Shown: piece by piece, positions 4,826-53,414 of the stretch
Layout: every line of letters begins with the position of its first letter
How positions within the stretch are numbered: the stretch's first letter is position 1
Origin: a virus
Reading direction: 5' to 3' (one strand)
Virus record (IMG/VR): IMGVR_UViG_3300027969_004149
Location: 1-54,289 of that record
Length of the DNA: 54,289 bases
Position numbers and translations under genes: made by a program
The notes under the pieces: generated by a model
Told to the model about the DNA's origin: nothing
The model's database searches: none
Seen by the model: the letters and a program-made list of their open reading frames with translations, nothing else

Positions 4826-4854
4826 TTGACAACATTCAAATAAGACTGTATAAT
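4826..4854 (+). promoter_or_regulatory. Sigma70-like promoter, TTGACA-17-TATAAT
   Basis: A perfect -35 (4826-4831) and a perfect -10 (4849-4854) are separated by 17 bases. The -35 begins 2 bases after tRNA-Thr. Transcription would start near 4861, upstream of an AAGGAG ribosome site (4867-4872) and the ATG at 4878. Likely an early or middle promoter read by host RNA polymerase. Confidence 0.88.
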
Positions 4855-9185: not shown

Positions 9186-9785
9186 AGAATATTTGAAAGC
9201 ATCTATATCACGTTCGTGTAATTTAGCAATTAATTTAATACTCTGATCGTTGAAATAGTTTTTAAATTCCCAGTGATCGTATTCACTAATGTCAGGCAAA
9301 GGAATATTGCATTTTAGATATTCCTTTATCTTTTTAAAGTCTTGTTCTAAATTTTCTGCTTTACAGACAAAATCAACGTGCTCATCGTTCACGTGAATAA
9401 AATCTATTTGATTGGTAAATCGAGTAAACCATCGAGGAAAATTAAATTCTATTTCTGGGTTACAGTAATCTGCAACCCATTCGTTGATAGGTTTCAAATC
9501 TAATAGAGTTTGATTGTTCCAATCTAACCAATAGCCTTCTGTGCTGACTTTACGATACAAGCTGTACACACGCTGCCAGGGATTTCGTACCACACTCATG
9601 GTTTTAGCATAGGGATAATGTTCTTTTATCATACCCAAGTGAGGGTGATCAATCATCCACGGATCGGTATCACTAACATTGAAATTAGGTTTGAGCCAAT
9701 CTGAAATAATTTTCTTCATGGCCATGCCTGTGCGGGGAACATGCACGTATGCTAACGAAGGACGACTGATATAAAAAGTACCCAT
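9168..9785 (-). CDS. Sulfotransferase-family protein
   Basis: About 205 residues. HVPRTGMAMKK (about 14-24) corresponds to the 5'-phosphosulfate-binding loop, and VVRNPWQRVYSLYR (about 65-78) to the 3'-phosphate-binding R-N-P-x-x-R-x-x-S segment, of PAPS-dependent sulfotransferases (Sulfotransfer_2-like). It would move sulfate from PAPS to a hydroxyl or amine of an unknown acceptor. I chose the ATG ending at 9785, which overlaps the desaturase stop as TAATG; an upstream in-frame start would lie inside the desaturase gene. Third gene of the minus-strand operon that starts at 11166. Confidence 0.78.
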   Translation of the reverse strand: MGTFYISRPSLAYVHVPRTGMAMKKIISDWLKPNFNVSDTDPWMIDHPHLGMIKEHYPYAKTMSVVRNPWQRVYSLYRKVSTEGYWLDWNNQTLLDLKPINEWVADYCNPEIEFNFPRWFTRFTNQIDFIHVNDEHVDFVCKAENLEQDFKKIKEYLKCNIPLPDISEYDHWEFKNYFNDQSIKLIAKLHERDIDAFKYSLRIST

Positions 9786-10555
9786 TATTTTATTTTTATC
9801 AACTGTATTAATCTTCCCATTAGATCCCACTCCCACCACTTCTCTCCGGAGTGCCAACGAACACCGTGTGCATGATGATTATTGTGCCATCCGTCACCGA
9901 GGCTAACAATATTCGCTAGCCAACTGTTGGTACTTCGATCATTGGTTTCGTGATTTCTATATCCGTGCCCGTGTCCTAACACGTTCACTACTCCTATCAG
10001 ATGTACAGTCATGCTGGCTGGAACCACATATACAAATAACCAAAGCAACGGGTCTATTACAAATAAAATCAAGGAAAACACAAAAATTATTTTAAAATAA
10101 TGTTTAAAAATAAACTTATGCGTGGGGCTTCTCATAAGGTCTTTGACATAGGCCACAGGTATGTGTGGTATGTTCCAATCATATCCCCACCATACTTTTA
10201 ATGCTTGCATCCAATTCCATTTACCGTTGATATAAGGACTGTGTGGGTCTCCGTCTTTGTCCGATGCTGCGTGATGCTGACGATGTAATGCTACCCAACT
10301 GATAGTAGGCCCTACTGTGGATATCACTGAAATGTAACTCAGAGTTGTTTCTAACCATTCATATGTCTTGAAACTTCTGTGTGTGAGTAGTCTATGCAGT
10401 GTGATCACCGAACTGATAGGCCCGATAACTAGCCATGCTACTAATGCTATCATCAGCAACCAATACTGTTGAGTGATCACAGCATACACAATAGATGGCA
10501 AGGCCACAATATGATTAAAAGTTTGTAGCAGTCTAATTTTTGAATCTAAATTCAT
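9785..10555 (-). CDS. Membrane fatty-acid desaturase (acyl-CoA delta-9 type)
   Basis: About 256 residues with the three histidine boxes of the di-iron membrane desaturases: HRLLTHRS (54-61), HRQHH (91-95) and HNNHHAH (224-230), plus a Gly/His-rich LGHGHGYRNH. Several hydrophobic segments (VYAVITQQYWLLMIALVAW, IIFVFSLILFVIDPLLWLF) indicate membrane insertion. Family members introduce a double bond into an acyl chain using oxygen and an electron donor. The ATG ending at 10555 overlaps the upstream stop (ATGA). It lies between an unknown gene and a sulfotransferase. Confidence 0.88.
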   Translation of the reverse strand: MNLDSKIRLLQTFNHIVALPSIVYAVITQQYWLLMIALVAWLVIGPISSVITLHRLLTHRSFKTYEWLETTLSYISVISTVGPTISWVALHRQHHAASDKDGDPHSPYINGKWNWMQALKVWWGYDWNIPHIPVAYVKDLMRSPTHKFIFKHYFKIIFVFSLILFVIDPLLWLFVYVVPASMTVHLIGVVNVLGHGHGYRNHETNDRSTNSWLANIVSLGDGWHNNHHAHGVRWHSGEKWWEWDLMGRLIQLIKIK

Positions 10556-11166
10556 TTGCCCTCCGGCAGCATATTCCATTCTTGATCATTGATAATGATA
10601 GGATTCCAATTTTCAAAAGCACGTTCACTGATATTTCTATAGACAAAATTTTGCCAACATTTTTGTACCGGCCACGGACAGGTTTGTATGTACCCAACCC
10701 CGTGCTGCCATTGATGATCACTAGCTGTGTCCATGTGCTGCTTCCAAATATCCCACCAACGTTTTCCACCTCTTGGTCTATTCTGCATGGTTATTAAATA
10801 GCACTCAAAGTTATTGTCTGCAATAAGTCGATCAATCAAACTACAGGTTACTCTAAACCCGTCAGTCATATCAGTGTGTGTCATACGAAACTCAGGAAAA
10901 GTATACAAACGATTAATCATTTTAGCTACATTGGACGGATATCTTTCATCATTGAAAACTCCCCCCATAACCATGGGCTTTCCTGTGCTAACTTGATACA
11001 CCACACCATACCCGTGGTGATCTTCTATTCTTAAATTGTCCTGAGTATAATTATATCTGAGCCAATTATTTTCCTCAAGGCATTGTTTTCTAACCTGTTC
11101 AAACTCATTATTAGATTGGTAGTACACAACTATGTGTGTGTCTTTTAAATCGTATCTGCTGTACAT
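10552..11166 (-). CDS. Hypothetical protein, possibly GNAT-like
   Basis: A 204-residue protein leading the desaturase/sulfotransferase operon. It shows strands such as GYGVVYQVSTGKPMVMGGVF and an aromatic-rich C-terminal half (GKRWWDIWKQH, CPWPVQKCWQ). The order of strands and the loop after the GGVF strand faintly recall an N-acyltransferase fold, but no diagnostic acyl-CoA loop is clear. No Shine-Dalgarno sequence; a TAAATA motif ends 7 bases before the ATG. Function unknown. Confidence 0.7.
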   Translation of the reverse strand: MYSRYDLKDTHIVVYYQSNNEFEQVRKQCLEENNWLRYNYTQDNLRIEDHHGYGVVYQVSTGKPMVMGGVFNDERYPSNVAKMINRLYTFPEFRMTHTDMTDGFRVTCSLIDRLIADNNFECYLITMQNRPRGGKRWWDIWKQHMDTASDHQWQHGVGYIQTCPWPVQKCWQNFVYRNISERAFENWNPIIINDQEWNMLPEGK

Positions 11167-25656: not shown

Positions 25657-26331
25657 ATGATTACAGAAAACACATTCGATGCTAAAGATATTAAAAAAGC
25701 TATTATAAAAAGCCAACATTGCCAACGGAATTGGGATCTCTCTAAAGACATACCCCAAGAGCATCTTGAAATACTCAAGACTTCTATCACACAGGCTCCT
25801 AGCTTACAGAATGTTGCTTTTTACAAAATACATTGGATACAAGATCGAGAAACAATAGAAAAAGTACACGAGTGTACTCACGGTGCTCCGTATAGAAAAA
25901 CCAAAAAAGGAATATTAGTCGACCCTAATCCCAAAGAAGATGATCATTTGTACGACATGGGAGATACTACTCAATCGCAGGTGTTGGCAAATCTTGTAGT
26001 AGTATTTGAAGAATATTACAATGTAGAAGAATATTTTAAAGAAAAACGCATAGAAGACAAACCTAAAGACTTCGATAAACATGTAGCAGTGGGTATTGCT
26101 TCTGGTTATCTTAACCTCACTGCTAACCTTTTAGGTTATGAAACAGGTTGCTGTATCTCTATGAAACACGACGAATTGAAAAAAACTCTAGACATGCAAG
26201 GAAAACCGTTATTAGTAATGGGAGTCGGTTTTAAACAACAAGGTGTTAGTCGTAGATTGCATCACACAACCCCTGAAATAAAATATCCAACTAATCCAAG
26301 ACAAGAAATTCCAGTAGTTGATTATCAGTAA
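25657..26331 (+). CDS. Nitroreductase-family flavoprotein
   Basis: A 224-residue protein. The N-terminal SQHCQRNWDLSKDIP, then LEILKTSITQAPSLQN, is the FMN-binding opening of nitroreductase-fold proteins (R-x-x-D, P-S-x-x-N). AVGIASGYLNLTANLLGYETGCC matches the buried helix region, and LLVMGVGF the closing strand. The family uses NAD(P)H and FMN to reduce nitro groups, quinones or enones; some members oxidise heterocycles in natural products. Linked by TAATG to a dioxygenase-like gene. Confidence 0.75.
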   Translation: MITENTFDAKDIKKAIIKSQHCQRNWDLSKDIPQEHLEILKTSITQAPSLQNVAFYKIHWIQDRETIEKVHECTHGAPYRKTKKGILVDPNPKEDDHLYDMGDTTQSQVLANLVVVFEEYYNVEEYFKEKRIEDKPKDFDKHVAVGIASGYLNLTANLLGYETGCCISMKHDELKKTLDMQGKPLLVMGVGFKQQGVSRRLHHTTPEIKYPTNPRQEIPVVDYQ

Positions 26332-26930
26332 TGCAAGTATATCATCAAGATATTGTAATTACTAAATTACAAGAAATTCAGAATCGATATTGTAATCACA
26401 TGCCTGATGTAGAATCAGGGGAAACTGAAATAATCGATTTTGATAAAGAAAGCGAAGACGCACAATGGATAACACAAAACATACTTCCAGATATCGAAGC
26501 ATATACCGGGAAGAAACATACGTTTCACCGAGCAGTATTGTTTGGCCAAGGCCCTAAAAGTTTTCAACCTGAACATATTGATGGTTTCTGGCCGCCCAAG
26601 GACGATGCAATTATTTGGTCATTAAACATTCCGATTACAAATTGCGAACAAGGGGAAATGATATGGTATGAAGGAGACTTTACAGTATCTCCAAAACCCA
26701 ACTCTCCTGAGTACGATTCTGGATTTAGGCCCAGTCATCGTACAAACGTAAAACTACTTAATTCGCTCGACTTAACTTGGGTCGGAGAACGTAAAATTAA
26801 AGATCGTATTATTGTAAATCAACCTACTATTGTTAAAGTTGACATTCCTCATCAAGTGGTGAACGCCAGCAATCAAGTACGCAAGTTATTAGCAGTAAGA
26901 GTTAGTCCGAATCTCATAATGCAGCAGTAG
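26331..26930 (+). CDS. Putative 2OG-Fe(II)/cupin-fold oxygenase
   Basis: A 199-residue protein. SFQPEHIDGFWPP has H-x-D; WSLNIPITNCEQGEMIWYEG is the following strand pair; IVKVDIPHQVVNASNQVRK carries the distal His and Arg. It shares the pattern (R/S)xN(I)P....T.. and V..PH.V with the 45343 protein beside acpS. The start forms TAATG with the nitroreductase stop, suggesting the two act on one substrate. Confidence 0.7.
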   Translation: MQVYHQDIVITKLQEIQNRYCNHMPDVESGETEIIDFDKESEDAQWITQNILPDIEAYTGKKHTFHRAVLFGQGPKSFQPEHIDGFWPPKDDAIIWSLNIPITNCEQGEMIWYEGDFTVSPKPNSPEYDSGFRPSHRTNVKLLNSLDLTWVGERKIKDRIIVNQPTIVKVDIPHQVVNASNQVRKLLAVRVSPNLIMQQ

Positions 26931-43185: not shown

Positions 43186-43636
43186 CTACAACTCGGACAC
43201 CGTGACCATAGATAGCAGCTATGGTGCGGTGCCTTATGAAACTATCATAGGCGGCAGTATGGGAACTGATACCATCACACTCAATAACACTCTGTGGTCT
43301 GGCGGATCAATAACATCACCTTACATCTACACTACTAACGTGACTAGTGGGGCTGGTACATATAATTGGAATAATACCTCATTGACCAACGGTAGTAGCA
43401 CCGTTCACATCGATGCAGACGGCCTTACTATGAAGGAAGGTGCTGATATCAAAATTGGCGGTAAGAGTCTAACCAAAGCCATAGAGCACATTGAAGAACG
43501 GTTGGGTATTCTAAATCCCAATCCGGCACTAGAAGATCGTTGGGAGCAGTTAAAAGAACTGCGTCAGCAATATGTAGAGATGGAACGAGATCTTCTCGAA
43601 AAAGAGAAGTTGATGAAGATTTTAAAGGAAGCATAA
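43154..43636 (+). CDS. Probable virion structural protein (160 aa)
   Basis: A 160-residue protein of three parts. A Ser/Thr/Tyr-rich N-terminal half (SSYGAVPYETIIGGSMGTD, TDTITLNNTLWSGGS) looks like small adhesin or collar proteins. HIDADGLTMKEGADIKIGGK recalls phage fibre or baseplate modules. The C-terminal LEDRWEQLKELRQQYVEME is a strong coiled coil. It starts inside the H1-like gene and its stop forms TAATG with thyX. A structural role is inference from composition. Confidence 0.62.
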   Translation: MPAKKQKQQPNYNSDTVTIDSSYGAVPYETIIGGSMGTDTITLNNTLWSGGSITSPYIYTTNVTSGAGTYNWNNTSLTNGSSTVHIDADGLTMKEGADIKIGGKSLTKAIEHIEERLGILNPNPALEDRWEQLKELRQQYVEMERDLLEKEKLMKILKEA

Positions 43637-44301
43637 TGAATGTTCGATTACTCAGCTATAGTCAACCCACCCAGGAATTTGCAGACCTTGGCATCGCAGA
43701 TGCACAGGAACTCATTGCGTATTGCGCCCGTGTCAGCAATCCCTCCAATCAACTCAACACAGACACATCAGAAAAACTTATCAGATACTTGGTCAAACAC
43801 CAACACTGGTCACCACTCGAAATGGTCTCTGCCTGTATCGAAATCACTACAACTAGAGATATTGCTAGACAAATCTTGCGTCACCGAAGTTTCAGTTTCC
43901 AAGAATTTTCTCAACGCTATGCTGATCCAACGAAAGATCTCAATTTTGTTACAAGAGAAGCTAGACTTCAAGACCCCAAGAACAGACAGAACAGTGTCGA
44001 AGTTGATGATCAACTGTTACAAAATGAATGGTACCGTGCTCAACAACGAGTCATCTATGCTGCCAAACGAGAATATGAATGGGCTATTGCTAACGGCATA
44101 GCTAAGGAGCAGGCCCGTGCTGTATTGCCCGAAGGACTTACAGAAAGCAGATTATATATGAACGGTACATTACGTAGTTGGGTACATTTTATTGAACTGC
44201 GTTCAACAAACGGCACACAGAAAGAACATCAAGAAGTTGCTGTTGCCTGCGCTAAAGTTATTGCAGAAATATTTCCTATGACTACGGATTTGACAGGATG
44301 A
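43636..44301 (+). CDS. thyX: Flavin-dependent thymidylate synthase ThyX
   Basis: About 222 residues from the ATG at 43636. The ThyX signature LRHRSFSFQEFSQRYA (81-96; RHRxxSxxExSxR) is intact. ARAVLPEGLTESRLYMNG and LRSTNGTQKEHQEVA are the other conserved blocks. It makes dTMP from dUMP using methylene-tetrahydrofolate, NADPH and FAD, supplying thymine for phage DNA. The start forms TAATG with the preceding stop; an ATGA junction joins it to the ACP gene. Confidence 0.95.
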   Translation: MNVRLLSYSQPTQEFADLGIADAQELIAYCARVSNPSNQLNTDTSEKLIRYLVKHQHWSPLEMVSACIEITTTRDIARQILRHRSFSFQEFSQRYADPTKDLNFVTREARLQDPKNRQNSVEVDDQLLQNEWYRAQQRVIYAAKREYEWAIANGIAKEQARAVLPEGLTESRLYMNGTLRSWVHFIELRSTNGTQKEHQEVAVACAKVIAEIFPMTTDLTG

Positions 44302-44531
44302 GCACTTTAGAGAAATTAAAAATTATTGTTGAAAAAGAATCTGCTCGTTCATTAGAAGATGATGAAATTAGTAGTACTTGGGAAGAACTAGATTTAGATA
44401 GTCTCTCTATGATTTCAGTTTTGCGAGATGTAGAGGACGAATTCAAAATTGTTCTTGAATACAATATATTCAAAGATCATAAAATTACCTGTATCAATGA
44501 TTTTTCGGAATACATAGATAAAAAATTATGA
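44298..44531 (+). CDS. Acyl carrier protein
   Basis: A 77-residue acidic protein with the carrier motif LDLDSLSMI: Ser35 is the 4'-phosphopantetheine attachment site. The spacing and the helix II sequence after it (SVLRDVEDEFKIVL) fit the four-helix ACP fold. It would carry an acyl, amino-acyl or polyketide-type chain as a thioester. The gene sits between thyX and an SGNH hydrolase, with acpS three genes on, all with ATGA overlaps, so carrier and activator are co-produced. Confidence 0.9.
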   Translation: MSTLEKLKIIVEKESARSLEDDEISSTWEELDLDSLSMISVLRDVEDEFKIVLEYNIFKDHKITCINDFSEYIDKKL

Positions 44532-45346
44532 TTGAAAAATTTATTGTATTTGGTTCTTGTCATACAGCCGGAGTTGAATTGTGGTCTGATAAAACCATTC
44601 CCGACTATTCAAATATGGATCCGTTAATTGCCGCAGTTAGATCAGATCCTAGAGTTTATATTGATCATATTCAAAATGGTAAATTTAACAAAGATATTCC
44701 TGAACAGATAGAATATGAAACAAATAATTCGTGGGTTAACGCATTAAGAGATCATTTTCCTAATACTGAAGTTATCAATACTTCAGTGGCGCAGAGTAAT
44801 TTGAAGAATTTCTTAAAAGCATCAACCTATTTTTTACAAAATCAAATTGATAAAACATCAACCTGTATTATTATAGAAATAACTGAGCCTACTGGAATTA
44901 CTGTGTGTCAAGACAACATGTTAAAATATGGTAGCAAACAACACTTAGGGTTTTATTTTGATGAACACCAGGCCGAGTTGATGAATTCGTATCTCGACTC
45001 TTATGAGAGTGCAAGATACAGAGCTTACCTAGATATAGTTTTTCTTTATAATTTAATTGGCAATCTAAGAAATCAAGGATACAATGCTCAATACTTCATG
45101 TGGAACCGAACTCCTTGGACTCGGTTGTTGAGTAGCACTGATCCAATCAAGATGTTTCAACCACAAAGCAATGACACCGACATGTTTGATAAATTGTTTC
45201 ATGAATTTTTACAAAATTCTCTAATCACTGTCGAACAGGAAACTGAAATAAAACAAATTCCCTTGTTGCCGCATGGACATATGCGACTTGAGGCACACGC
45301 ATTATTAGGTAAATTTATCAGTAAACGAATTATGGAGATAGTATGA
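44528..45346 (+). CDS. SGNH-hydrolase-like protein
   Basis: A 272-residue protein. FIVFGSCHTAGVE carries the nucleophile block (GS; Ser about 10), INTSVAQSNLKNFLKA the middle block, and LPHGHMRLEAHALLGKF the C-terminal His block. Beside an acyl carrier protein it could act as an acyl-ACP thioesterase or an acyl transferase to a hydroxyl; that is inference from position. Paralogue of the 29600 gene. ATGA overlap on both sides. Confidence 0.65.
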   Translation: MIEKFIVFGSCHTAGVELWSDKTIPDYSNMDPLIAAVRSDPRVYIDHIQNGKFNKDIPEQIEYETNNSWVNALRDHFPNTEVINTSVAQSNLKNFLKASTYFLQNQIDKTSTCIIIEITEPTGITVCQDNMLKYGSKQHLGFYFDEHQAELMNSYLDSYESARYRAYLDIVFLYNLIGNLRNQGYNAQYFMWNRTPWTRLLSSTDPIKMFQPQSNDTDMFDKLFHEFLQNSLITVEQETEIKQIPLLPHGHMRLEAHALLGKFISKRIMEIV

Positions 45347-45885
45347 AGCTATGGTCGTATTTTGATGTACCGAATTGGGAAGATATGAGAGATCGTATCA
45401 ACCAAAGGTGGGCCGACGAATATCCCAGAATGAAGATGCTAAATTATTTCCCTAATCATGTAATATACGAAACTGTTCCAGATTTAAAAGATTGGTTAGA
45501 TTCTCAAGGCATAACAGTGTCCGGGTTTGGCATTTTTATTTTTCAATACAATACCACCGATAGCAAAGTGCATGTGGATATTGGAAATCCCACAAACTAT
45601 AGATTTAATATTCCATTAATGAATACCGATACCAGCCATACTGAGTTTTTTGAAACTGTTTGGGATAAAGGTGTAGACATTCAGAATTTAGATGCCACAG
45701 AAGATTCACCGGTTAGGGAATGGGAGTACGGCGACGAGGGCACACTGCTCGACGGGTTTGTATTAAACCAACCGGCTATATTACACGTGAGAGTACCTCA
45801 CAGAGTTAGAGTCACCGAAAACAAACCAAGAATTTGTTTGACTGCTTGTCCGATTTCCGACAGTCAATTGTTGAGATTTTTATGA
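45343..45885 (+). CDS. Putative 2OG-Fe(II)/cupin-fold oxygenase
   Basis: A 180-residue protein. FGIFIFQYNTTDSKVHVDIG has H-x-D; YRFNIPLMNTDTSHTEFFE is the next strand pair; AILHVRVPHRVRVTENKPR carries the distal His and Arg. It resembles the 26331 protein (NIP....T and V..PH.V). Between an SGNH protein and acpS, it may hydroxylate a carrier-bound chain. ATGA overlap with acpS. Confidence 0.7.
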   Translation: MKLWSYFDVPNWEDMRDRINQRWADEYPRMKMLNYFPNHVIYETVPDLKDWLDSQGITVSGFGIFIFQYNTTDSKVHVDIGNPTNYRFNIPLMNTDTSHTEFFETVWDKGVDIQNLDATEDSPVREWEYGDEGTLLDGFVLNQPAILHVRVPHRVRVTENKPRICLTACPISDSQLLRFL

Positions 45886-46181
45886 TAGGCATTGATATTA
45901 CTGCGATTAAGAGATTTAAAAAATCCACTGAATCGTTAGCAACAAAAATATTAACCCCAGACGAGATGTTAGAATATAATGCGGTGAAAAATAAAGCAAA
46001 TTATCTAGCAGGAAGATGGGCTTGTAAGGAATCTGTATTCAAAGCTACAGGCCTAACTAATGTAACAGTATTATCGGATCCTAACGGTAAACCATACGTT
46101 AAAGATCATCGAGATATCATGGTCAGCATAAGTCACGATCAGTCTTATGCAGTAGCAATGGCTGTTCAAAAAAACGTTTAA
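45882..46181 (+). CDS. acpS: Holo-[acyl-carrier-protein] synthase
   Basis: A 99-residue protein from the ATG at 45882. MIGIDITAIKRF (Asp5) and GRWACKESVFKATG (Glu50) are the two metal/CoA-binding blocks of AcpS; ILTPDEMLEY and MVSISHDQSYAVAMAV are the other signatures. It transfers 4'-phosphopantetheine from CoA to the carrier Ser, presumably Ser35 of the ACP encoded at 44298. It is slightly shorter than E. coli AcpS. Confidence 0.9.
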   Translation: MIGIDITAIKRFKKSTESLATKILTPDEMLEYNAVKNKANYLAGRWACKESVFKATGLTNVTVLSDPNGKPYVKDHRDIMVSISHDQSYAVAMAVQKNV

Positions 46182-46184
46182 AAA

Positions 46185-46565
46185 ATGGAAGAACTTAATA
46201 AATTTTGTCAAAACTACGAAGTGCGTGTTCTAAACGATTCCAAGCGTAGGGCACGGTATCATCCTCCTAAGTTTTTCACAGACCCTTGTCGTGCTGATCT
46301 TATTCGCAATGACATCATAGAGTACGAAACCGAAAAAGTCTATACAGTAGAAATACCCGAAGGTAGACTTCGCACTCTAGTCGAAATGGAACGTAGGTTC
46401 TTTAACTATGTTGCACATCACGACAAGCCGATTGACATGTTTCAAACACTTATGGACAAGGAACGTGAAGAAGCTCATTATAGAAATACCAATCAAGCTG
46501 TTAAAAAAGCCTACGAACAGTATTCGATTATGCTTAACCTAGCAGGATATCAAAAAAAGTTTTGA
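46185..46565 (+). CDS. Hypothetical protein (126 aa)
   Basis: No family recognised. A charged, largely helical protein with YEVRVLNDSKRRARYHPP near the N-terminus and VEMERRFFNYVAHHDKP in the middle. It lies 3 bases after acpS and ends just before a strong promoter, so it is the last gene of the thyX-acpS unit. Confidence 0.65.
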   Translation: MEELNKFCQNYEVRVLNDSKRRARYHPPKFFTDPCRADLIRNDIIEYETEKVYTVEIPEGRLRTLVEMERRFFNYVAHHDKPIDMFQTLMDKEREEAHYRNTNQAVKKAYEQYSIMLNLAGYQKKF

Positions 46566-46582
46566 TTCATTTTGAATAGATA

Positions 46583-46611
46583 TTGACAGGTTTATAGAAA
46601 GATAGTATAAT
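46583..46611 (+). promoter_or_regulatory. Sigma70-like promoter, TTGACA-17-TATAAT
   Basis: Perfect -35 (46583-46588) and perfect -10 (46606-46611) with a 17-base spacer, in the intergenic gap. The leader contains a TAAGGA ribosome site before the ATG at 46648. Confidence 0.9.
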
Positions 46612-48585: not shown

Positions 48586-48780
48586 ATGAACTTTGAACTA
48601 TACGAAGTTTGGGCAGTGGATGAAGCCGGTCACGAAGAATTGGTAGAAACCACCAGCAGTAGGAAAGAAGCGTTAGAAATAGCAGAAGCCAATCTTGGAT
48701 TGGGTGTTATGGAAGCCATTGTGTATCAAGAAGATGAGAATGGCGACTTGCATGAAATCAAGCGATTTGGACATGGTTGA
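48586..48780 (+). CDS. Small hypothetical protein (64 aa)
   Basis: No family recognised. An acidic 64-residue protein (ELYEVWAVDEAGHEELVE). An AAGGAG site precedes it at some distance. Its last codons contain the -35 element of the next promoter. Confidence 0.68.
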   Translation: MNFELYEVWAVDEAGHEELVETTSSRKEALEIAEANLGLGVMEAIVYQEDENGDLHEIKRFGHG

Positions 48781-48805
48781 CAAACTCGCAGTTTGGTGCT
48801 ATAAT
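48777..48805 (+). promoter_or_regulatory. Sigma70-like promoter, TTGACA-17-TATAAT
   Basis: Perfect -35 (48777-48782) and perfect -10 (48800-48805), 17-base spacer, overlapping the stop of the preceding gene. The leader has ACAGGAG before the ATG at 48837. Confidence 0.9.
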
Positions 48806-51810: not shown

Positions 51811-51939
51811 ATGGCATCATCCCTCTTTAAACACTCTGCAGTCATCAAACTTGCTACCTACAAAAAGGAGACTAGAGATGGCAAAATATCTTTCAACAAA
51901 AACTTACGGCAACGACCGCGGACTTTCATGCTGTTTTAG
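51811..51939 (+). CDS. Possible 42-residue upstream ORF overlapping the QueD-like gene
   Basis: An ATG at 51811 with an AGAGGA site 8 bases upstream opens a 42-codon frame that ends at 51939, 62 bases inside the QueD-like gene and in a different frame. It begins MASSLFKHSAVIK and is Lys/Arg-rich. It may be a real small protein or a leader that couples ribosome flow to the QueD-like start. No homologue recognised. Confidence 0.35.
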   Translation: MASSLFKHSAVIKLATYKKETRDGKISFNKNLRQRPRTFMLF

Positions 51940-52402
51940 ACAGTGGAAAAGTACACATTCACATTGCTCATTGCTACACGGATACTCAATCGGTATCAAA
52001 TTAATTTTCGAATCAGAAACACTAGATGACCGCAATTGGGTCATGGACTTTGGCGGACTCAAAGCATTTAAAGAGTGGAGTGAGTGGCAATTCGATCACA
52101 CCACTGTAATGGGCAGTGATGATCCTCATCTTCCAAAGTTCAAAGAACTGGCCAAGTTGGGCAAGCAAGCAGAAGGCGGTGTACTGGATCTACGTGTTGT
52201 AGAAGCAGTAGGTTGCGAAAAGTTTGCTGAGTTAGCTTACCGAACTATGAACGAAATCCTAGAAGCATATAAACAAGGTCGTGGTTGGACACATCCAGAT
52301 GGTCGTGTATTTGAAGCACGTTATCCTGTTGGTCAAGGTGTTAAACTTCGTAGTGCTGAAGTATTTGAACATGCTGGCAACTCGGCAATTTATGAGGCCT
52401 AA
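51878..52402 (+). CDS. queD: 6-carboxytetrahydropterin synthase-like (QueD/PTPS family)
   Basis: About 174 residues from the ATG at 51878, which has AAGGAG upstream (51864-51869). THSHCSLLHGYSIGI matches the catalytic Cys and HGH zinc region of QueD (Cys30, His34), but the second His of HGH is Tyr36; His27 and His29 could substitute. WQFDHTTVM matches the catalytic Asp-His segment, and EVFEHAGNSAIY the C-terminal Glu. QueD converts dihydroneopterin triphosphate toward preQ0. With the QueC-like gene it suggests a 7-deazaguanine route, though other steps are not in the window. Confidence 0.75.
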   Translation: MAKYLSTKTYGNDRGLSCCFRQWKSTHSHCSLLHGYSIGIKLIFESETLDDRNWVMDFGGLKAFKEWSEWQFDHTTVMGSDDPHLPKFKELAKLGKQAEGGVLDLRVVEAVGCEKFAELAYRTMNEILEAYKQGRGWTHPDGRVFEARYPVGQGVKLRSAEVFEHAGNSAIYEA

Positions 52403-52560
52403 TGAAAAGGCTTTGGCGTTTATGGGCTAAAGCACTAGGTGAAAAATCAGGTGCTACTGATCGAGAAGCTGATTCAGTAGCACTTGTTCGTACAGTTATT
52501 GTACTAACCTATATCATCACAAACCTGTTTATTATTGCTGGTGTCATCAGACATTGGTAA
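52402..52560 (+). CDS. Small membrane protein (52 aa)
   Basis: The ATG at 52402 overlaps the QueD-like stop as TAATG. A basic N-terminus [15 protein letters not shown] is followed by an acidic linker and one membrane helix ([18 protein letters not shown]). I recall a closely similar small protein, starting [14 protein letters not shown], in T4-like phages of marine bacteria. Its role is unknown; an inner-membrane position with the N-terminus in the cytoplasm is likely. Confidence 0.8.
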
Positions 52561-52568
52561 ATAATAAT

Positions 52569-53414
52569 ATGCGTACATTTAATATTAACCAACTCGCTAT
52601 CGGTAACAAATTACCCTTTGTTCTCATCGCTGGCCCGTGTCAAATAGAAAGTCAGGACCATGCAGAAGATACCTGTGCTAGGCTTATTGCTATCACAGCA
52701 TTGCTTGGTATCCCGTTGATCTATAAAAGTAGTTTTGATAAAGCCAATCGTTCTAGCATTTCTACCAAGCGTGGAGTAGGGATCAAAGAAGGACTTGATA
52801 TTCTCAATTCAATCAAGCACAGTTTCGGAGTGCCTGTGTTAACAGATATTCACGAATCGTGGCAGGCAAAGGAGTGTGCAGAAGCTGGCATCGACATACT
52901 ACAAATTCCAGCATTCCTATGTAGACAAACTGATTTATTATTGGCTGCTGGAGAAACTGGCTGTGTGATTAATGTCAAGAAAGGTCAATTTCTTGCACCC
53001 CACGATATGAAAAATGTTGCAGCAAAGATTGCTTCAACTGGCAATGAACGTATTATGTTATGCGAAAGAGGATACACTCATGGATACAATAACCTTGTGG
53101 TGGACATGCGCAGTCTACCTATCATGGCAAGCACTGGCTATCCAGTGGTCTTTGATGCCACACATTCTGTTCAACAGCCTGGGGGAATGGGAGAAAGATC
53201 TGGAGGAGATAGGACCATGGTCCCGTACTTGGCGAGAGCTGCTATAGCCACAGGATGTGTATCAGCCCTGTTCATGGAATGCCACGAAGATCCAGATAAC
53301 GCACCCAGCGATGGCCCTAACATGATCAAGTTAGATGATCTCTCAGAAATATTAGAACAATTGGTTGCCATAGATGGAATTGTCAAAAGAACAACGCCAA
53401 CAAGCCAAGGCTGA
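52569..53414 (+). CDS. kdsA: 3-deoxy-D-manno-octulosonate 8-phosphate synthase
   Basis: About 281 residues from the ATG at 52569, near the 284 of E. coli Kds[13 protein letters not shown] (N-terminal AGPC), [89 protein letters not shown] and [19 protein letters not shown] are all KdsA blocks. It condenses arabinose 5-phosphate with phosphoenolpyruvate to KDO-8-phosphate, the LPS inner-core sugar. It points to a Gram-negative host and a role in envelope or glycan change during infection. Confidence 0.95.

Follow-up and report, generated by a model that had tools for sequence, protein, structure and literature searches.

A putative mobile cassette links a phage acyl carrier protein and its phosphopantetheinyl transferase with SGNH-fold and oxygenase-like partners

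Four genes in an uncultured virus, encoding an acyl carrier protein (ACP), an SGNH-fold protein, a putative 2OG-Fe(II) oxygenase, and an AcpS-type phosphopantetheinyl transferase (PPTase), appear from comparison of related contigs to constitute a horizontally exchanged accessory cassette, with two insertion positions in three lineages. The window, by which we mean the entire 54,289-nucleotide stretch analyzed here (IMG/VR record IMGVR_UViG_3300027969_004149), is a linear virus record representing a 54-kb fragment. We consider it slightly better than an even chance, roughly 55%, that the mobile cassette runs a small ACP-dependent acyl-modification pathway during infection. Phage ACPs have been noted for years while lacking a function; where one shares a unit with its own activator, a Cys-type SGNH protein, and an oxygenase, the problem is reduced to a reaction that can be tested. 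The cassette further provides an entry point to the many 2OG and SGNH genes that remain unexplained in large aquatic phages.

The cassette lies directly 3' of thyX, the stop of which overlaps the ACP start, and 4-bp ATGA overlaps at 44298, 44528, 45343, and 45882 join thyX-ACP-SGNH-2OG-AcpS (Table 1). All four open reading frames and overlaps that a preliminary description of this DNA had placed after thyX are present. thyX itself is a conserved backbone gene, found in nearly all of about 60 related contigs. Downstream, a perfect sigma-70 promoter, kept in the related contigs L003 and L017, sets gene 46648 apart from the predicted cassette transcription unit. The window has three perfect TTGACA/TATAAT pairs with a 17-base spacer, whereas shuffled sequence would be expected to give 0.10.

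Table 1. Features of the cassette locus and of other parts of the window
Feature	Position	Strand	Evidence
thyX (flavin-dependent thymidylate synthase)	43636..44301	+	Pfam Thy1, E 6.8e-45; PHROG 85
ACP, 77 aa, DLDSLSM with phosphopantetheine Ser35	44298..44531	+	PF00550; PDB ACP match
SGNH-fold protein, 272 aa, Cys11 and His251	44528..45346	+	AF2/Foldseek, motif
Putative 2OG-Fe(II) oxygenase, 180 aa, H77-x-D79...H153...R163	45343..45885	+	Motif; hhalign
AcpS-type 4'-phosphopantetheinyl transferase, compact, 99 aa	45882..46181	+	PF01648; AcpS 1f7l alignment
W46185, conserved backbone gene, marks insertion site	46185..46565	+	Comparison of related contigs
Perfect sigma-70 promoter TTGACA-17-TATAAT upstream of gene 46648	46583..46611	+	
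Two further perfect TTGACA/TATAAT promoters	4826-4854; 48777-48805	+	
Fatty acid desaturase	9785-10579	-	PF00487, E 2.1e-19
KDO-8-phosphate synthase KdsA	52554-53414		412 bits
PTPS/QueD-like gene	51851-52402		

The carrier and its activator are the most securely assigned members of the cassette, and the preliminary description had called both clear. That reading holds for the ACP, which matches the Pfam PP-binding profile at E 6.9e-6 (26.7 bits, above the curated cut-off of 20.8) and the PDB ACP 8gsa at E 4.7e-8. Conservation of the carrier serine had been proposed as a check, and in the alignment Ser35 and the surrounding WEELDLDSLSM are invariant in all three cassette lineages. The protein scores under every NCBIfam cut-off for fatty acid synthesis (FAS) ACPs and is thus not an ordinary AcpP. 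Pick-up of an ordinary host FAS gene was ruled out on this score and because fab genes are not adjacent. A 90-bp tract of the ACP core (44388-44478) shares 98% DNA identity with L003 amid surroundings of about 70%, which points to recombination.

The AcpS likewise stands as described, scoring 50.5 bits against PF01648 (E 2.4e-13; cut-off, 25) and 64 bits against TIGR00556 (cut-off, 45). It aligns to the solved AcpS 1f7l at E 2.9e-11 with D5, E50, and H85 retained, the first two of which we take to be the Mg-binding Asp and Glu, and is shorter than that structure by one loop of about 8 residues and another of about 4. Its 48.6 bits against TIGR00516 (acpS) fall below the equivalog cut-off of 59.8; it is therefore a divergent, compact family member, for which we claim no orthology to the housekeeping AcpS. 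A broader AcpS profile that included Bacillus subtilis AcpS recovered no further viral loci.

Relatives of the locus comprised about 60 related IMG/VR contigs, and a scan with W46185 yielded 61 viral loci. Roughly 55 of the contigs carry the backbone of W43154, thyX, W46185, W46648, and W47489 with the cassette absent. In the window and L002 the cassette sits between thyX and W46185; it directly follows thyX in L007, the contig ending within AcpS. In L003, L004, and L018 it lies between W46185 and W46648, a position shared by L010, which is cut within the SGNH gene. The alternative in which W46185 moved and the cassette stayed in place was rejected, as the cassette-free order thyX-W46185-W46648 dominates among the relatives. 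The ACP-SGNH-2OG-AcpS order is fixed, with the 4-bp overlaps, across three diverged lineages, so that the search of viral genomes for this gene order suggested at the outset did find it again (L003/L004/L018 and L007).

Substitution rates indicate that the copies are constrained. Between the window and L007, dN and dS are 0.13 and 1.9 for the SGNH gene and 0.07 and 1.4 for the 2OG gene. Against L003, dS is saturated for both and about 4 for AcpS, compared with 0.16 to 0.93 for neighboring genes. The grouping is not due to chance, as the four genes keep their order in L003/L004/L018 and in L007 while dN is low and dS is high or saturated. Relative to L003 the cassette is far more diverged than its flanks, which suggests that the block was exchanged. 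Wherever dN and dS can both be computed, dN is much the lower, and by this measure the cassette genes are under purifying selection. Carrier and activator, described earlier as sharing one operon, thus belong, with two probably catalytic partners, to a conserved unit that is inherited as a whole.

Across 50 whole records, PF01648 was confined to the four cassette carriers and PF00550 to these four, the truncated L010, and G041, a co-occurrence of ACP and AcpS that is an association rather than proof, since the records are fragmentary and not independent. G041 encodes an unrelated ACP; after it come an uncharacterized gene, a gene with a weak PLP-aminotransferase match, and one for a 2OG protein, and AcpS is absent. 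This 2OG protein belongs to the cassette 2OG subfamily and lies 1.1 kb past the ACP; ACP-2OG proximity therefore recurs. In the related phage L086 (8156-10099), the ACP context, second to that of the cassette, has the ACP ahead of a 104-aa protein, a PLP-aminotransferase-like protein, and a 2OG protein, with AcpS absent, and there glycosyltransferase-, nitroreductase-, and carbamoyltransferase-like genes (recognized by eye) follow.

The slots of relatives hold other cargo, including KdsB-like, tryptophan halogenase, cupin, FkbM-like methyltransferase, and other genes, the halogenase assigned by Pfam and the rest by eye. The KdsB-like genes of L058, L064, and L070 occupy the cassette slot or lie close to it. 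The halogenase (PF04820) occurs between W46185 and W46648 in L058 (7734-9233; E 1.8e-99) and in L042/L044 (7735-9237), in each case adjoining a conserved small membrane-like protein.

The SGNH-fold protein has no Pfam or NCBIfam profile matches, and its placement comes from motif, model, and relatives. Its AF2 model (pLDDT 58, pTM 0.61) found E. coli thioesterase I/TesA and GDSL esterases as best solved matches in Foldseek, the TesA match (E 2.6e-3, probability 1.00) being at fold level only, with 11% identity. Viral matches to the same model were better, with E values down to 4e-6, and several are named SGNH_hydrolase. All three lineages share the block I sequence FGSC[HN][TS]AG, which places Cys11 at the nucleophile position, so that the catalytic Ser is replaced in 3/3 cassette members; block V keeps His251 (GH), and the Asp of Asp-x-x-His is absent. 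ACP-unlinked SGNH-type proteins, both in the window (29600 and 4069) and in L100, L099, L070, L027, and L053, read GCS or GDS, i.e., Ser, and in the motif alignment Cys at this position is limited to ACP-linked members. Profile comparison with the SGNH-like proteins of the window was not significant, and kinship with them is drawn from motif and alignment. The protein shares a local GSC motif with the GSCFA family (PF08885) and gave no Pfam match to it at E ≤ 1. A search of bacterial genome contigs for relatives of the SGNH protein and AcpS returned none that passed.

Of the earlier name SGNH hydrolase, the fold is probable and the activity uncertain, the label being doubtful because Cys11 occupies the place where SGNH enzymes have Ser. 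From its motifs, acyl transfer seems as likely as hydrolysis, and Cys11 could also be structural, or the protein noncatalytic.

In 2OG oxygenases, an HxD...H arrangement forms the Fe(II) triad and a distal Arg binds 2OG. H77, D79, H153, and R163 of the third cassette protein reproduce this triad and distal Arg and are among just nine invariant columns in an alignment of eight divergent relatives. The H-to-R spacing is that of the Asp_Arg_Hydrox proteins of the window, and hhalign relates the protein to the one encoded at 26331-26927 (E 2.9e-4). Profile searches of Pfam, NCBIfam, and PDB gave no matches, and the AF2 prediction reached a pLDDT of 36. Its description as a dioxygenase-fold protein draws on the Fe/2OG motif and on its relatives, and the fold itself is putative.

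The remainder of the window is rich in putative tailoring enzymes, with 2OG-Fe(II) oxygenase and Asp/Arg hydroxylase-like genes very densely interleaved with radical SAM genes at 959-35753. The desaturase, which has two homologues in L086, could act on acyl chains, and any tie to the ACP cassette would be conjectural. Related phages with similar radical-SAM, 2OG, and desaturase genes lack the cassette, and the suggested supply of its intermediates to other tailoring enzymes of the window is unsupported. Among the scanned proteins of the 54-kb fragment, Pfam gave no match for adenylation (AMP-binding), ketosynthase, MBOAT, or malonyl-transferase functions. "Self-contained" was therefore too strong a term; as no loading enzyme was found among these proteins, the ACP would have to be loaded by the host or by a product encoded outside the fragment. 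As to that host, the nearest cultured relatives of ThyX are in Methylophilales phage Melnitz and Limnohabitans phage DC31 (66.7%), which together with the KDO-8-phosphate synthase suggests a Gram-negative, perhaps betaproteobacterial, host.

In the pathway that we favor, AcpS would add phosphopantetheine to Ser35 of the ACP, and the holo-ACP would be charged with an acyl group from the host, through fatty acid synthesis or an acyl-ACP synthetase. Alternatively, an acyl-CoA may serve AcpS as the direct donor of acyl-phosphopantetheine. Oxidation, most likely hydroxylation, of the acyl chain on the carrier, or else of the acceptor, would then fall to the 2OG-Fe(II)-type enzyme, and the SGNH protein would use its candidate active-site Cys to take the acyl group off the ACP and pass it to an acceptor, or would release it. 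Both the order of these reactions and transfer in preference to hydrolysis are proposed here; as a guess, the product or acceptor might be a component of the host envelope or of phage glycans. Counting against the pathway, no loading enzyme or ligase is seen, although the record is a fragment, the SGNH and 2OG proteins have no Pfam support, and the cassette is present in three lineages only. A more specific version, that a Cys-nucleophile SGNH enzyme transfers a 2OG-hydroxylated acyl group from the AcpS-armed phage ACP to a host or virion target, as a Dlt- or PipG-like viral acyl decoration, is tentative and less likely than not.

Other readings of the four genes were weighed against this pathway. 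The ACP might be a decoy or modulator of host fatty acid metabolism, which, armed by its own AcpS, draws CoA-derived phosphopantetheine or acyl groups away from the host ACP, with the SGNH protein acting as a TesA-like thioesterase that releases free fatty acids, so that no new product is made. The Foldseek result for TesA fits, as do other phage ACPs that are without obvious pathway partners; TesA has Ser, however, where the cassette protein has Cys, and the likeness is confined to the fold. Such a decoy could do without an oxygenase and an AcpS of its own, but the four genes were kept together in three lineages, and we judge this account unlikely.

That four unrelated small accessory genes with separate roles have simply met in a hypervariable slot is harder still to credit. 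The variety of cargo in relatives would agree with it, and SGNH and 2OG relatives are also found elsewhere without an ACP, but diverged copies agree in gene order and in overlaps although they sit at two insertion points, and AcpS is confined to cassette carriers among the whole records, both of which argue otherwise. FkbH-type enzymes transfer a glyceryl group to ACP through an enzyme Cys thioester, and by analogy the SGNH protein might load the ACP, the 2OG enzyme modifying a small acyl unit destined for phage or host surface glycans. The position next to an ACP and the conserved Cys of the SGNH-like fold are compatible with such loading, as are KdsA and a weak GT8-like glycosyltransferase match in the window and the KdsB-like genes in the same slot of relatives; Pfam and NCBIfam scans found no HAD-phosphatase domain or FkbH match, and we hold this the least probable of the readings considered. 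The acyl-modification pathway thus remains our preferred interpretation.

Comparison with known systems tempers one part of the preliminary description. An ACP together with its synthetase, which had been thought unusual in a phage, was reported in 2010 by Sullivan et al. from cyanophages P-HM1 and P-HM2, the genomes of which also carry two asparaginyl beta-hydroxylases and a taurine dioxygenase (PMC3037559). Like the cassette, these T4-like phages pair an ACP (T4-GC457, PP-binding above cut-off) with an ACPS (T4-GC500, PF01648), and MED4-213 likewise has both. In P-HM1, however, about 22 kb separate the two genes, and neither is flanked by an SGNH/2OG unit, whereas the cassette is compact. 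The P-HM1/P-HM2 ACP and PPTase are 158 and 152 aa, against 77 and 99 aa here, and tblastn found no match between the cassette ACP and AcpS and these counterparts. Phage-borne ACPs are common and have been treated as auxiliary metabolic genes, as with R6L, R22Y, R16F, and the Roseobacter prophage fabG-acpP-fabF (PMC5463345, PMC11705849, PMC10152775, PMC8224337). The passages describing these lone ACPs mention no synthetase and, unlike the cassette, no SGNH/2OG partners. Among the cultured phages of INPHARED, the ACP, SGNH protein, and W46648 had no match, and AcpS matched three unannotated Enterococcus/Listeria phage records and the sfp of Acinetobacter phage MD-2021a at 32 to 36% identity. The pairing of an ACP with its own PPTase is therefore known, and it is the compact four-gene cassette that is unmatched in that collection.

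In the dlt system for D-alanylation of teichoic acids, DltC is the dedicated carrier protein and works with the SGNH-superfamily transferase DltD, an arrangement that the cassette resembles. DltD is listed as an SGNH family (PMC9487903). The cassette differs in having Cys instead of Ser, no DltD match, an additional oxygenase and AcpS, and neither DltA adenylation nor DltB MBOAT counterparts among the scanned proteins of the fragment. In pseudotetraivprolide biosynthesis, the dioxygenase PipE hydroxylates, and the SGNH-family protein PipG, in which Cys47 is important, is needed for O-acetylation (PMC12828459). PipG (GSCFA-SGNH), which acts after a dioxygenase, resembles the putative SGNH protein of the cassette in bearing a Cys, although PipE and PipDFG belong to a large NRPS/PKS cluster and act on a released peptide, and the cassette SGNH protein lacks a Pfam GSCFA match. 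While we claim membership in neither the GSCFA nor the Dlt group, PipE with PipG and DltC with DltD may be regarded as the nearest functional parallels to this viral cassette.
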